From: an uncultured Pelagibacteraceae bacterium
Lineage (GTDB): Bacteria > Pseudomonadota > Alphaproteobacteria > Pelagibacterales > Pelagibacteraceae
NCBI GenBank assembly: GCA_902579285.1
Contig: CACHGA010000001.1
Coordinates: forward strand, 1-64,000
DNA: 64,000 bases
Direction of reading: 5' to 3'
Positions 37,751 through 63,633 of the stretch are shown piece by piece. Within the stretch, counting starts at the first letter, position 1. Every line of letters starts with the position of its first letter. The notes beneath the pieces were generated by a model, which worked only from the letters and a program-made list of their open reading frames with translations, was not told the DNA's origin and made no database searches. Made by a program: the position numbers and the translations under genes.

Positions 37751-38881
37751 TTAAAATATTCCCTTGTTAGAAACTCTCAAACTAATATCTTTAAGGATAT
37801 TAAATTTATTTATATCTTTTAGTATAACTTTTTTAATAGGCTCAGTAATTTTATTAAATTTAAAAAAATTATTTATAAAGTTTATTCCTAAACCGAAAAG
37901 AAGGTTTTCTGGTTTCCTTTGTTTTAAATATTCGTCTATAAATAATGAGTCTTTAATTTGAATGCCATTTTTTATGTATTCATTAATTTTTCTATTTAAA
38001 TAAAAAATATCTCTCAAAATTAAGTTAAACCCTTGTCCTGCAACTGGATGCACATTATATGAGCCTTCTCCGAGTAACAAAATATTTTTTTTATTAAAGC
38101 TTGATCGGAATTTAAATGATATTGGAAAACAATCTACTTTAGAGATTCTTAAATCGCTTTGGATTTTCAGAATTTCTTTAAGTTTCTTAGTTATAATAAG
38201 GGCTGCGTTTTTATTTTTAAATTTACTTCCTACACTCCACACGAAAGAAAATTTGTTTTTGTTTAAAGGAAGTATGGCCATTGGTCCTTCCTTTAAGAAA
38301 AATTGCTTTGCATTTATTATATTCGAAGTGTGATTAACAATTGATGTAAAGGCGATCTCATCTGTTTTTCTCTCAATAAATCTGTCCTTAAATATATTTT
38401 GAATAATTTCTGATTTGCTGCCTGTACAAACAAATATAGCATCATAACTGAAATTTTTATTTGCAAAAAAAACCTTATTTTTTTCAACGTCTATTTCACT
38501 AACTTTTTTATTAAATATTTTTAAATTCTTGTATGTATTTATTTTTTTTTTAATTAATTTCTTTAAAATTTCATTTTGGAACAAAAACATTAAATTTTTA
38601 CGTTTATTTGATAAATTCATAAAGTGTTTGATTTCTTTTGAATGTTCTTTGTAAAGATCTATCTCCTTAGATTCAAAAAAGATTTTCGATTTTTTTTTGC
38701 CAATAAAACTGATTAAGCCTTTATGATTACTTTCAGAAATAGCTGTAGTTCTTATATCTCTCCTTCTTTTTTTATCAGGCGCTGCAATTAAATGGACGTC
38801 TAAATTGAGTTTTCCCAGAATTAATGCAGCTGTAAGCCCAGTTAACCCGTTTCCAATTATGCATATTTTTTGTTTAATCAT
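37751..38881 (-). CDS. UbiH/UbiF/COQ6-family FAD monooxygenase
   Basis: The 376-residue flavoprotein has 'IIGNGLTGLTAALILG' (about 8-23), 'RTTAIS' and the family signature 'VHPVAGQGFNLILRD' after 'ILLLGEGSYN'. It probably hydroxylates the ubiquinone ring in the inner membrane. The usual GD motif reads 'LLLGEGSYNVHP', an E-for-D change that is unusual in this family. The start overlaps the hemE stop by 8 nt, so it belongs to a hemE-ubiH-BKACE transcription unit. Confidence 0.88.
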   Translation of the reverse strand: MIKQKICIIGNGLTGLTAALILGKLNLDVHLIAAPDKKRRRDIRTTAISESNHKGLISFIGKKKSKIFFESKEIDLYKEHSKEIKHFMNLSNKRKNLMFLFQNEILKKLIKKKINTYKNLKIFNKKVSEIDVEKNKVFFANKNFSYDAIFVCTGSKSEIIQNIFKDRFIERKTDEIAFTSIVNHTSNIINAKQFFLKEGPMAILPLNKNKFSFVWSVGSKFKNKNAALIITKKLKEILKIQSDLRISKVDCFPISFKFRSSFNKKNILLLGEGSYNVHPVAGQGFNLILRDIFYLNRKINEYIKNGIQIKDSLFIDEYLKQRKPENLLFGLGINFINNFFKFNKITEPIKKVILKDINKFNILKDISLRVSNKGIF

Positions 38882-39884
38882 TTTTTTCTCTTATAAATTT
38901 AACAATGAAATCTATAGTCTCTGGTTTTGTTTCTGGTAACACTCCGTGTCCTAAATTAAAAATATATGGATAATTTGAAAAGATTGAGATGTATTTCATA
39001 ATGTTCTTTTTTAAATCTTCTGTGGATCCCAATAAAATTTTGGGGTCCAAACCTCCTTGTATTGGTATTCCACTAGCTTTTTCTAAAATCCAGGATGGCT
39101 CAACATCGTAGTCGATGCTTATACAATCTGGTTTGACTACTTTGCAAAATTCTTCATATTTTTTATTTATTCCTCTCGGAAAACAAATGATTGGTTTACC
39201 CAGCTTCTTCAACCTTGCAACAATTCTTTTTGTTGGCTCAAAACAGAACTTTTTAATTTTATTTGCTGGGAGCAATCCTGCCCATGAATCAAATATTTGT
39301 ACCGTATCTGCCCCTGCCTCTATTTGATTTTTTAAATGTAAATATATAAAGCTTTCAATTTTGTTCATTAATTTTTCTATTTTTTTTTCGTCTTCAAGAA
39401 GGTTTTCTATATTAAAATTTTTCTTTGGTGACTCTCTATTAATCATATAAACCAAAAGAGTCCATGGAGCTCCAGCAAAACCAATAAGGTTTGTGTTTTT
39501 AAGTTTTTCTTTTGTTTTTTTTATTCCTTTATAAACCGGATATACTCGCTCTACAAAATCACTTTCCTTACAATTTATTATTTTTTCAATATCTATTTCT
39601 CCTAATATAGGTCCATGTCCTTTTTTAAACTCTACTTTCTGGTTAAGACCGTAGGGTATTATTAAAATATCAGAAAAAATTATTGCAGCATCTAATTTAA
39701 ATCTATTTATTGGTTGTAATGTAATTTCTTTTACTAAGTCTGGGTTTAAACATAACTTTATAAAATCTTTATTTTCACTTCTAATTTTTCTAAATTCAGG
39801 AAGGTATCTTCCAGCTTGTCTCATAAACCATATAGGTTTGCTAGAAACTTTTTTATTTATTATACAGTCTGATAATTTACTCAT
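38874..39884 (-). CDS. hemE: Uroporphyrinogen decarboxylase
   Basis: The 336-residue enzyme decarboxylates uroporphyrinogen III to coproporphyrinogen III. 'PIWFMRQAGRYLPEFR' (residues 17-32) holds the substrate arginines, 'AAIIFSDILIIP' the catalytic aspartate, and 'IFNLGHGVLPET' the C-terminal signature. In many Alphaproteobacteria hemE flanks the replication origin, and the gap upstream of this start has origin features. Confidence 0.97.
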   Translation of the reverse strand: MSKLSDCIINKKVSSKPIWFMRQAGRYLPEFRKIRSENKDFIKLCLNPDLVKEITLQPINRFKLDAAIIFSDILIIPYGLNQKVEFKKGHGPILGEIDIEKIINCKESDFVERVYPVYKGIKKTKEKLKNTNLIGFAGAPWTLLVYMINRESPKKNFNIENLLEDEKKIEKLMNKIESFIYLHLKNQIEAGADTVQIFDSWAGLLPANKIKKFCFEPTKRIVARLKKLGKPIICFPRGINKKYEEFCKVVKPDCISIDYDVEPSWILEKASGIPIQGGLDPKILLGSTEDLKKNIMKYISIFSNYPYIFNLGHGVLPETKPETIDFIVKFIREKND

Positions 39885-39959
39885 AATATATATTATAAAT
39901 TTAAATTATAATTGATGTAATAGGTTATGTTAGTTACTATGATTAGTATAATTCACCAT

Positions 39960-39968
39960 TTATCTACA
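39960..39968 (+). promoter_or_regulatory. DnaA box, one mismatch
   Basis: TTATCTACA differs from TTATCCACA at one position. It lies in the hemE-ppsR gap, 45 nt before the consensus box and in the same orientation. Confidence 0.6.
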
Positions 39969-39992
39969 TTTTTATACATTTAAGAAGCTGTA

Positions 39993-40012
39993 AATTAAGT
40001 AAAATTAAGTAA
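39993..40012 (+). repeat. Tandem 10-bp direct repeat beside DnaA box
   Basis: AATTAAGTAA occurs twice head-to-tail (39993-40002 and 40003-40012), ending exactly where the consensus DnaA box begins. TTAA half-sites spaced by 6 nt recall a CtrA site (TTAA-N7-TTAA) but the spacing is off by one. It may serve as an unwinding element or regulator site. Confidence 0.65.
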
Positions 40013-40021
40013 TTATGCACA
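40013..40021 (+). promoter_or_regulatory. DnaA box, consensus
   Basis: TTATGCACA is a full match to TTATNCACA and abuts the tandem repeat. It is the best DnaA site I found in the hemE-ppsR gap. Confidence 0.75.
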
Positions 40022-40157
40022 ATCTTGAATAAAAGTTATAAAATTATAAACATAGGATAAATTGTTTGTAATTTGTTAATCTAGTATGAATAAAAAAAGT
40101 AGTTTTATTAATCTATACTTATATCTACTAATTATTATAAATTAATTAACAGAGTTA

Positions 40158-40979
40158 ATGACAAGAAAATATCAGATAATTTTAATATCAGACTCAACCG
40201 GAGAAACACTTGGCAGAATTTTCCTTGCGATACAATCTCAATTTGCAAGCTTCGAGTATGATAAAAAAGAGTATGTTTTTATTAGAACAGAACAACAGAT
40301 AGATAAGGTTTTAAACGAGTATAAAGGAAAAAAAAATACAATTGTTTTATACACGGTCGTAGATACCAAATTAGCAAAATATTTGGCTTCAGAAAGCCTC
40401 AAAAGTAATATTCCTTGTTTCGGAGTTTTAGGAAACCTAATTCTAAGTTTCTCAAAATTACTTAACCAGAAAGCTATACACAAACCTAGCGCTCAGCACG
40501 TTTTGGATGAAGATTATTATAAAAGAATAGAAGCAATACAATTTACAATGTCTCATGACGATGGGAAGAAAACAGAGGATATAAATCAAGCTGATATTAT
40601 TTTATTAGGTGTAAGCAGAACCAGCAAAACACCAACATCAATTTATTTAGCGAATCGAGGTTACAAAACTTTAAATATACCTTTGGTGCTTGACCAAAAA
40701 ATCCCTCAAATTCTTAAGGAAAATTTTTCTAAATTTTGTGTTATTGGTTTAGTAGCTGATCCGGAAAGATTGTCTGAAATAAGAAGAACACGTGCAAGCG
40801 TTAATCAATCAATAGACCTAAAGGCCTACACAGACGTAGAAGCAATAAAAGAAGAAGTTGAAAATTCAAAGAAAATGTTCAAACAACATGGTTGGCCCAC
40901 AATTGACGTAACACGAAGATCTGTCGAGGAAACCGCTGCATCTATAATTAAAATATTTGAAATAAAAAAGAACAAATGA
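40158..40979 (+). CDS. ppsR: Pyruvate, phosphate dikinase/PEP synthase regulatory protein
   Basis: The 273-residue bifunctional kinase/pyrophosphorylase (DUF299) switches PPDK or PEP synthase on and off by threonine phosphorylation. 'LISDSTGETLGR' (residues 9-20), the P-loop-like 'GVSRTSKTPTSIYLANRG' (151-168) and the C-terminal 'IDVTRRSVEETAASI' are diagnostic. It is the first gene rightward from the origin and opens a five-gene chain joined by 4-nt overlaps. The target dikinase is not in this window. Confidence 0.96.
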   Translation: MTRKYQIILISDSTGETLGRIFLAIQSQFASFEYDKKEYVFIRTEQQIDKVLNEYKGKKNTIVLYTVVDTKLAKYLASESLKSNIPCFGVLGNLILSFSKLLNQKAIHKPSAQHVLDEDYYKRIEAIQFTMSHDDGKKTEDINQADIILLGVSRTSKTPTSIYLANRGYKTLNIPLVLDQKIPQILKENFSKFCVIGLVADPERLSEIRRTRASVNQSIDLKAYTDVEAIKEEVENSKKMFKQHGWPTIDVTRRSVEETAASIIKIFEIKKNK

Positions 40980-61348: not shown

Positions 61349-61987
61349 ATGAATTCTAGTGAATTTAATTATAAATCAAAGCTGGTTTTGGTTAAAAGTC
61401 TAAATTTTAGTGATAAAAAAATTAAACTCATTGAAATTTTTGTTAAAGAAGTTCTAAATTTTAATAAAAAGTACAATTTAATCTCAAAAAGTTCAGAAAA
61501 GGATATTTGGAACAGGCACGTACTGGATTCTGCTCAGCTTATAAATTATATAGACCATAAAAATTTTAATAGTTTATCTGACCTTGGTACTGGTGGTGGG
61601 TTTCCTGGAATTATATTATCTATCTTCTATAATGATATTACCACGTTTCACGTGAAACTTTATGATAAATCAAAAGTTAAGGTTAAATTTATTAAATATA
61701 TTATTGATAAAATAAACCTTAATAATGTTGCTATATATGATAATGATTATCAATCTCATATAATAGATACACAATATATTGTTTGTCGTGCCTTCAAAAA
61801 ATTGCCAGAAATACTGAGAATTTCACGTGAAACTCATAAAAAACCACATAAACTTATCGTGATGCTTGGAAAGAGTGCACAGGACGAGATAAATAAAGCT
61901 TCAAAGGATTTAATTTATAAGTATAAGCTAGTTAATAGCATCACTAGTACTGATTCTAAAATTTTACTGGTGGATGTAAAAAAATAA
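61349..61987 (+). CDS. rsmG: 16S rRNA (guanine-527-N7)-methyltransferase
   Basis: The 212-residue methyltransferase has the SAM loop 'SDLGTGGGFPGIILSIF' (about residues 76-92) and 'WNRHVLDSAQL' upstream, both typical RsmG. It methylates G527 of 16S rRNA. Two parS-like palindromes lie inside the coding sequence. parA starts 3 nt after the stop, so mnmG-rsmG-parA-parB forms one block. Confidence 0.96.
   Translation: MNSSEFNYKSKLVLVKSLNFSDKKIKLIEIFVKEVLNFNKKYNLISKSSEKDIWNRHVLDSAQLINYIDHKNFNSLSDLGTGGGFPGIILSIFYNDITTFHVKLYDKSKVKVKFIKYIIDKINLNNVAIYDNDYQSHIIDTQYIVCRAFKKLPEILRISRETHKKPHKLIVMLGKSAQDEINKASKDLIYKYKLVNSITSTDSKILLVDVKK
61645..61658. other. parS: parS-like centromere site (perfect palindrome)
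   Basis: GTTTCACGTGAAAC is the inner 14 nt of the parS consensus TGTTTCACGTGAAACA. It is perfectly palindromic, with outer bases C and T deviating. It is read in frame as part of rsmG (residues T-F-H-V-K), 0.3 kb upstream of parA. Confidence 0.9.
61820..61833. other. parS: Second parS-like site
   Basis: ATTTCACGTGAAAC matches the core parS palindrome with one mismatch at its first base. It lies 175 nt after the first site, also inside rsmG. Paired sites close together next to parAB support a ParB-loading centre. Confidence 0.85.
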
Positions 61988-62791: not shown

Positions 62792-63633
62792 GTGCTCAAA
62801 AAAAAGGACTCGGAAAAGGCTTATCGGCTTTATTTGGTGAAATAGAAAATAAAATTGATAATAAAAGAAATCAAAAAAATACCATTGCGATTTCAGACAT
62901 TGAAAGAAATAAATATCAGCCAAGAATGATTTTCGATGAAGAAAAATTGGAAGAGCTGAGTTTGTCCATAAAAGAAAATGGAATAATACAGCCAATAGCT
63001 GTAAGACCAAATAAATATGATCCAGGAAAATTTGAAATTGTAGCTGGAGAACGAAGGTGGCTTGCCGCACAAAAAGCTGGATTAAATGAAGTTCCAGTTA
63101 TAGTTTTGAATATAGACGATCAAAAAAGTTTGGAAATTGCAATTGTTGAGAATGTTCAAAGACAGGATCTAAATATCATTGAGGAGGCAAAAGGATATCA
63201 AAGACTTAGTCAAGAGTTTGGATATGATCAAGATAAAATTTCAAAATTAATGTCTAAAAGCAGAAGTCATGTAAGCAACACTCTTAGACTATTAACCTTG
63301 CCAGGTGATGTAATCGGTCTGATAGAGGAAGGCAAATTGACGGCTGGTCAAGCTAGACCCTTAGTTGGGATGCCAAATGCTTCAGAAGTCGCAGAAAATA
63401 TAGCAAAAAAGAAGGTAGCTGCAAGACAAGTCGAGTCTATGGTGAAGGGAAAAAAAGGCAAAAAGACCGACACAATCGAAGATCCAAATATTATTTTCGT
63501 GAGAAATGAATTAGAAAGCAAGCTAGGGCTGAATGTCGAAATAATGAATAAAAAAAATAACTCAGGTAAGGTAGTTATCAAATATAAAACGTTAGACCAA
63601 TTTGAATTGATTTCTAAGCTTCTCACTAAGTAG
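62788..63633 (+). CDS. parB: Chromosome partitioning protein ParB
   Basis: The 281-residue CTPase clamp starts with 'KKGLGKGLSALFG' (5-17). It has 'AGERRWLAAQKAGL' (86-99), 'VENVQRQDLNIIEEA' and the helix-turn-helix 'QDKISKLMSKSRSHVSNTLRLL'. It loads at parS, two candidates for which lie about 1 kb upstream. Overlaps parA by 4 nt (ATGA) and the convergent holA by 8 nt. Confidence 0.97.
   Translation: MSAQKKGLGKGLSALFGEIENKIDNKRNQKNTIAISDIERNKYQPRMIFDEEKLEELSLSIKENGIIQPIAVRPNKYDPGKFEIVAGERRWLAAQKAGLNEVPVIVLNIDDQKSLEIAIVENVQRQDLNIIEEAKGYQRLSQEFGYDQDKISKLMSKSRSHVSNTLRLLTLPGDVIGLIEEGKLTAGQARPLVGMPNASEVAENIAKKKVAARQVESMVKGKKGKKTDTIEDPNIIFVRNELESKLGLNVEIMNKKNNSGKVVIKYKTLDQFELISKLLTK

Follow-up and report, generated by a model that had tools for sequence, protein, structure and literature searches.

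The replication origin of Caulobacter lies between hemE and a COG1806 gene, and that of Rickettsia has been predicted at the same place (PMC1914354). The Caulobacter crescentus origin, Cori, is a compact region flanked by hemE and the COG1806 (DUF299) gene, with DnaA sites of which a few are moderate and several weak (PMC1914354, PMC4468827), and it also carries five CtrA sites together with G-/W-boxes (TGATCCACA, TCCCCA; PMC4285127). The origin predicted in Rickettsia prowazekii is an A+T-rich hemE/COG1806 gap (82.6%, 384 nt; PMC1914354) for which CtrA and IHF sites have been claimed, and Escherichia coli oriC, which has other flanking genes, contains two opposed arrays of DnaA sites (PMC4285127). 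We found no paper in the open-licence literature describing an experimentally mapped SAR11 origin.

The window analysed here is a 64,000-nt stretch of an uncultured Pelagibacteraceae genome (G000, genus g1), and belongs to a contig of 351,410 bases from an incomplete assembly (892,566 bases, 80% complete). Within it, an intergenic gap of 273 nt (39885–40157) separates hemE, assigned to uroporphyrinogen decarboxylase from its ORF and sequence (38874–39884, minus strand), from ppsR (DUF299/COG1806; 40158–40979, plus strand), the same pair of flanks as at Cori and in Rickettsia. The initial annotation read this gap as a compact oriC, and we agree that it is very probably the chromosomal origin of this SAR11 genome, at the ancestral alphaproteobacterial place, with conserved DnaA sites, no contribution from CtrA, and a tandem repeat that is most likely neutral. 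That the gap is an origin is well supported by the flanking genes, the conserved length and DnaA sites, a switch in strand asymmetry, nearby parS and parB, and, in two complete relatives, the co-orientation of genes.

The gap is 83.5% A+T, compared with 70.1% for the contig, and is the fifth longest on a contig where the median gap is 22 nt; it is some 110 nt shorter than its counterpart in R. prowazekii. Its length is 261–296 nt in almost all of the approximately 110 Pelagibacteraceae gaps read (a number that includes some genomes entered under two handles), with genus g2 at 356 nt. Beyond ppsR are ORFs that we take, from their sequences and from the gene neighbourhood of this locus, to be maf, aroE, coaE, and dnaQ. 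An order-wide search gave a ppsR match in 151 of 198 genomes; all listed genomes of family f2 lack one, and the sole f2 genome tested (G002) has both dnaA and parB.

Three DnaA-type sites lie in forward orientation within the gap. Site 1 (TTATCTACA, 39960–39968) has one mismatch to the consensus, is 98% identical among 11 congeners, and ranks second in conservation among the 265 9-mers of the gap; it is the additional one-mismatch box that had been reported ahead of the consensus box. Site 2 (TTATGCACA, 40013–40021) is the consensus box itself and is 88% identical among the same congeners, with TTATGCACA present in four of the 12 g1 genomes and TTATACACA in another four; it aligns with TTATAAACA in genus g6. 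Site 3 (TTATAAACA, 40044–40052; one mismatch, 92% identity) begins 31 nt past the start of site 2 in three aligned g1 genomes, and G152 has TAATTAACA there. Sites 1 and 2 are separated by 44 nt, or 53 nt start to start, giving a conserved layout in which forward sites at intervals of 53 and 31 nt are followed by an opposed array of half-sites at an 11/10-nt pitch. The array consists of putative weak DnaA-like units on the minus strand, TTACAAACA (40063–40071), the half-site AGATTAACA (40074–40082), and TTATTCATA (40085–40093), each displaced by 11 nt from the last; the second is recognised from its sequence and the TGTT pitch, the third from its sequence and comparison with congeners. The 9-mer ATTTGTTAA, at the second unit, ranks among the most conserved in the gap. 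On the right side of the gap, successive TGTT motifs are 11 nt apart in g1; in g6 an 11-nt step is followed by one of 10 nt. TGTT pairs at the array pitch number about 10 in the 12 g1 genomes and 60 in 68 genomes. The expectation of few DnaA boxes thus holds for consensus boxes, which are indeed scarce, but not for the locus as a whole, in which conserved weak sites make up a longer array. Two opposed arrays are also the arrangement at E. coli oriC, although strong boxes of the R1/R2/R4 type are mostly missing in SAR11.

We compared the numbers of TTATNNACA sites with those in shuffled gaps, using named relatives that are nearly all uncultured Pelagibacteraceae represented by single cells and assemblies, which bears out the placement of this genome in SAR11. 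There are 32 against 4.0 expected in g1 and 36 against 3.4 in g3, and the other named relatives have 151 where 20.5 would be expected, an excess of 7 to 11 times across the three sets, with the caveat that these counts span related genomes and hence are not independent. Almost every such site is on the plus strand, both in g1 and in the other named relatives. Outside g1 the sites are mostly TTATNAACA rather than the consensus TTATNCACA. The consensus does not exceed chance among the 68 other named relatives (2 sites, with 1.9 expected), and genus g3 retains some (8 against 0.2 in 11 genomes). For the gap in the window, one TTATNCACA is found in 2.3% of shuffles and three TTATNNACA in 0.4%. An altered DnaA recognition helix was considered as the cause of the TTATNAACA sites but was not seen: the domain IV recognition motif RDHTT is unchanged in the 11 genomes, of 14 rows, in which that region is readable. 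In the g3, g4, and g5 gaps, TTATNNACA sites are often 11 or 22 nt apart (offsets 60/71, 74/85, and 41/63), which suggests that helical phasing may extend to the left side too.

Strand asymmetry was measured at fourfold-degenerate sites with the coding strands separated. The A–T asymmetry is -0.061 (z -3.5) to the left of 40 kb, where the contig offers only 40 kb of left arm, and +0.051 (z 8.3) to the right. On the 351-kb contig the best single breakpoint is at 40,000 for AT and 46,000 for GC; the AT optimum is broad, extending to about 70 kb with an almost equal fit at 62 kb, and the breakpoint is resolved to about 25 kb. Switches of the same sense are present at hemE–ppsR in G085, of the same genus, and in G161, of genus g6. 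In the complete genomes G011 and G146, of which roughly a third of the bases were sampled, AT switches at the locus and genes mostly diverge from it on both sides, with forward/reverse totals of 127/57 kb on the right and 61/123 kb on the left in G011, and 108/65 kb and 60/120 kb, respectively, in G146. Cumulative GC skew had been suggested as a check, with a minimum elsewhere counting against an origin here, and the raw minimum of the contig does fall away from the gap, at 284 kb. This failure has no bearing on the origin: raw skew would wrongly refute it because gene orientation dominates the signal and fourfold-site GC asymmetry is inverted in the clade, and we therefore dropped it as evidence. 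Raw GC skew serves poorly for locating origins in this clade. HTCC1062 has earlier been listed among the chromosomes with unequal skew-based arms (PMC2099444).

Partition elements are also nearby. Two parS-like sites, CGTTTCACGTGAAACT (61644–61659, 21.5 kb from the gap) and AATTTCACGTGAAACT (61819–61834), precede a parB whose matched stretch of TIGR00180 lies at 62872–63408 on the plus strand (E 5.7e-55, over the curated cut-off), placing all three at 21.5–23 kb from the gap. G085 has the same pair, also 175 nt apart, with the first site at 68905, and in g1 the palindrome pair is about 20–22 kb from the locus and 1–1.3 kb before the parB match. These g1 sites were found only once up to three mismatches to the parS pattern were allowed, there being no g1 match with one mismatch or fewer. 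Five complete genomes have a single parS 9–19 kb from the locus, parB is syntenic among relatives, and dnaA lies about 74 kb from the gap in a neighbourhood that is kept. Several SAR11 genomes encode, near parB, a winged-helix (Trans_reg_C) protein whose receiver domain is degenerate or missing; in G000 it lies 8 kb to the right of parB (G000:C1:71527-71736), and in G085 and G011 it occupies the same place.

The gap could instead be nothing but a divergent hemE/ppsR promoter region, with the origin elsewhere within about 30 kb. The AT breakpoint fits almost as well at 62–68 kb, and a promoter-like match for hemE (CTAACA-17-TATAAT, minus strand, 39933–39905) shares positions with the best-conserved stretch of the gap, GATGTAATAGGTTATGTT (39914–39931), where none of the 12 g1 genomes departs from TGTAATAGG. 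We regard this explanation as improbable: DnaA-type sites are far above shuffles in the lineages tested, the gap is the only one of the 28 contig gaps of at least 100 nt with three TTATNNACA sites while none of the others has more than one, and in Caulobacter this gap has been proven to be the origin (PMC1914354). Divergent promoters could nevertheless account for part of the conservation of the gap. The GATGTAATAGG..ATGTT block is conserved above most of the DnaA sites, and could represent the promoter of hemE or else a protein-binding site. Duplex stability was also considered as a guide to a constant unwinding element, and was rejected, since the least stable 40-mer differs in place between g1 and g6; in g3 it adjoins hemE.

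A second alternative, raised by the initial annotation, is that a tandem repeat and the adjoining box form a functional unit, with the repeat serving either as an unwinding element or as a CtrA-like site with 6-nt spacing. The repeat is present as described, with AATTAAGTAA at 39993–40002 and 40003–40012 on the plus strand running directly into TTATGCACA, and these are the only exact copies in the window; its TTAA motifs (39995–39998 and 40005–40008) are 6 nt apart. The repeat is exact and adjoins the box, dinucleotide shuffling of the gap yields an exact tandem unit of at least 10 nt in just 0.9% of cases, and the closest relative keeps it as AATTAAGTAT AATTAAGCAA, with two substitutions in 20. 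For a single gap such a repeat is slightly out of the ordinary, and similar ones occur elsewhere, there being four exact tandem 10-mers in the 351-kb contig. Across the 11 congeners, however, its 20 bases are 46% identical, compared with a mean of 72.5% for all 20-nt windows, making it the 12th least conserved of 254. Even in the closest relative its identity (90%) does not exceed that of the whole gap (93%). L156 retains one copy, and the majority of the remaining ten congeners have lost the repeat or show nothing recognisable. The proposed comparison among relatives therefore separates the two parts of the module, the box being conserved and the repeat not, and leaves the unwinding element unsupported.

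CtrA fares no better. Using the NCBIfam model NF045991 with a cut-off of 350 bits, no CtrA was found over the cut-off in nine SAR11 genomes (best score 148 bits), and one of 14 controls passed, presumably Caulobacter. G000 encodes four OmpR-type regulators; one exceeds the PhoB cut-off, and the CtrA cut-off is reached by none of them. We do not take TTAA-N6-TTAA as a CtrA site because no CtrA exceeds the cut-off, and in addition the spacing is 6 rather than the required 7 and the site is not conserved. Neither component of a Caulobacter-type, CtrA-regulated origin, an encoded CtrA and a conserved TTAA-N7-TTAA, was thus found in this search, and TTATNNACA sites are present here where Cori has CtrA sites and G-/W-boxes. 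We consider a functional repeat-box unit very improbable; most likely the tandem AATTAAGTAA is a neutral feature of the rapidly changing DNA that separates site 1 from site 2. For motifs seen in one genome in A+T-rich origins, relatives should be compared before a function is assigned.

The sign of the GC asymmetry requires comment. At the locus it turns from plus to minus in G000, G152, and G161, opposite to G011, and G146 is weakly on the inverted side, so that in g1 and g6 the GC bias is inverted around the origin (C over G on the leading strand) and the AT sign is as in G011. That the locus instead lies near the terminus, the origin having moved in the clade, would explain this usual terminus sign, which G085 shares in sense (its left side is not significant), but is exceedingly improbable, as the AT sign matches complete genomes whose gene orientation marks the origin, the forward/reverse gene totals on the left side of the locus (30/62 kb in G161, 19/28 kb in G085) are those expected of an origin, and the parS/parB and dnaA neighbourhood is kept. 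We favour an inverted GC bias because the AT sign, the gene orientation, and parS all fit an origin.

With the gap as origin, a plausible mechanism can be drawn by analogy with E. coli, a parallel that we do not count as evidence for the class of this origin. Most likely DnaA would nucleate on the forward sites TTATCTACA, TTATGCACA, and TTATAAACA, whose spacings of 53 and 31 nt approximate to five and three helical turns, and would then spread to the weak half-sites that face the other way and recur every 11 nt (40063–40093). Filling of the array would presumably strain and open the very A+T-rich flanking DNA, CtrA taking no part in initiation. DnaA occupancy, the order of assembly, and the place of unwinding are all predicted rather than observed features of this scheme.

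It is possible, although we advance it tentatively and with more doubt than conviction, that SAR11 origins in general are CtrA-free and in most lineages lack a consensus box, with a DnaA of canonical recognition motif acting on weak TTATNAACA sites of conserved position and on helically phased, opposed half-sites such that initiation proceeds by low-affinity cooperativity alone. Few cell types on Earth outnumber SAR11 bacteria, and their cell-cycle control is poorly understood. A pinned-down origin would allow growth to be read from metagenomic coverage, and the hemE–ppsR gap offers a compact, CtrA-free alphaproteobacterial origin to test.
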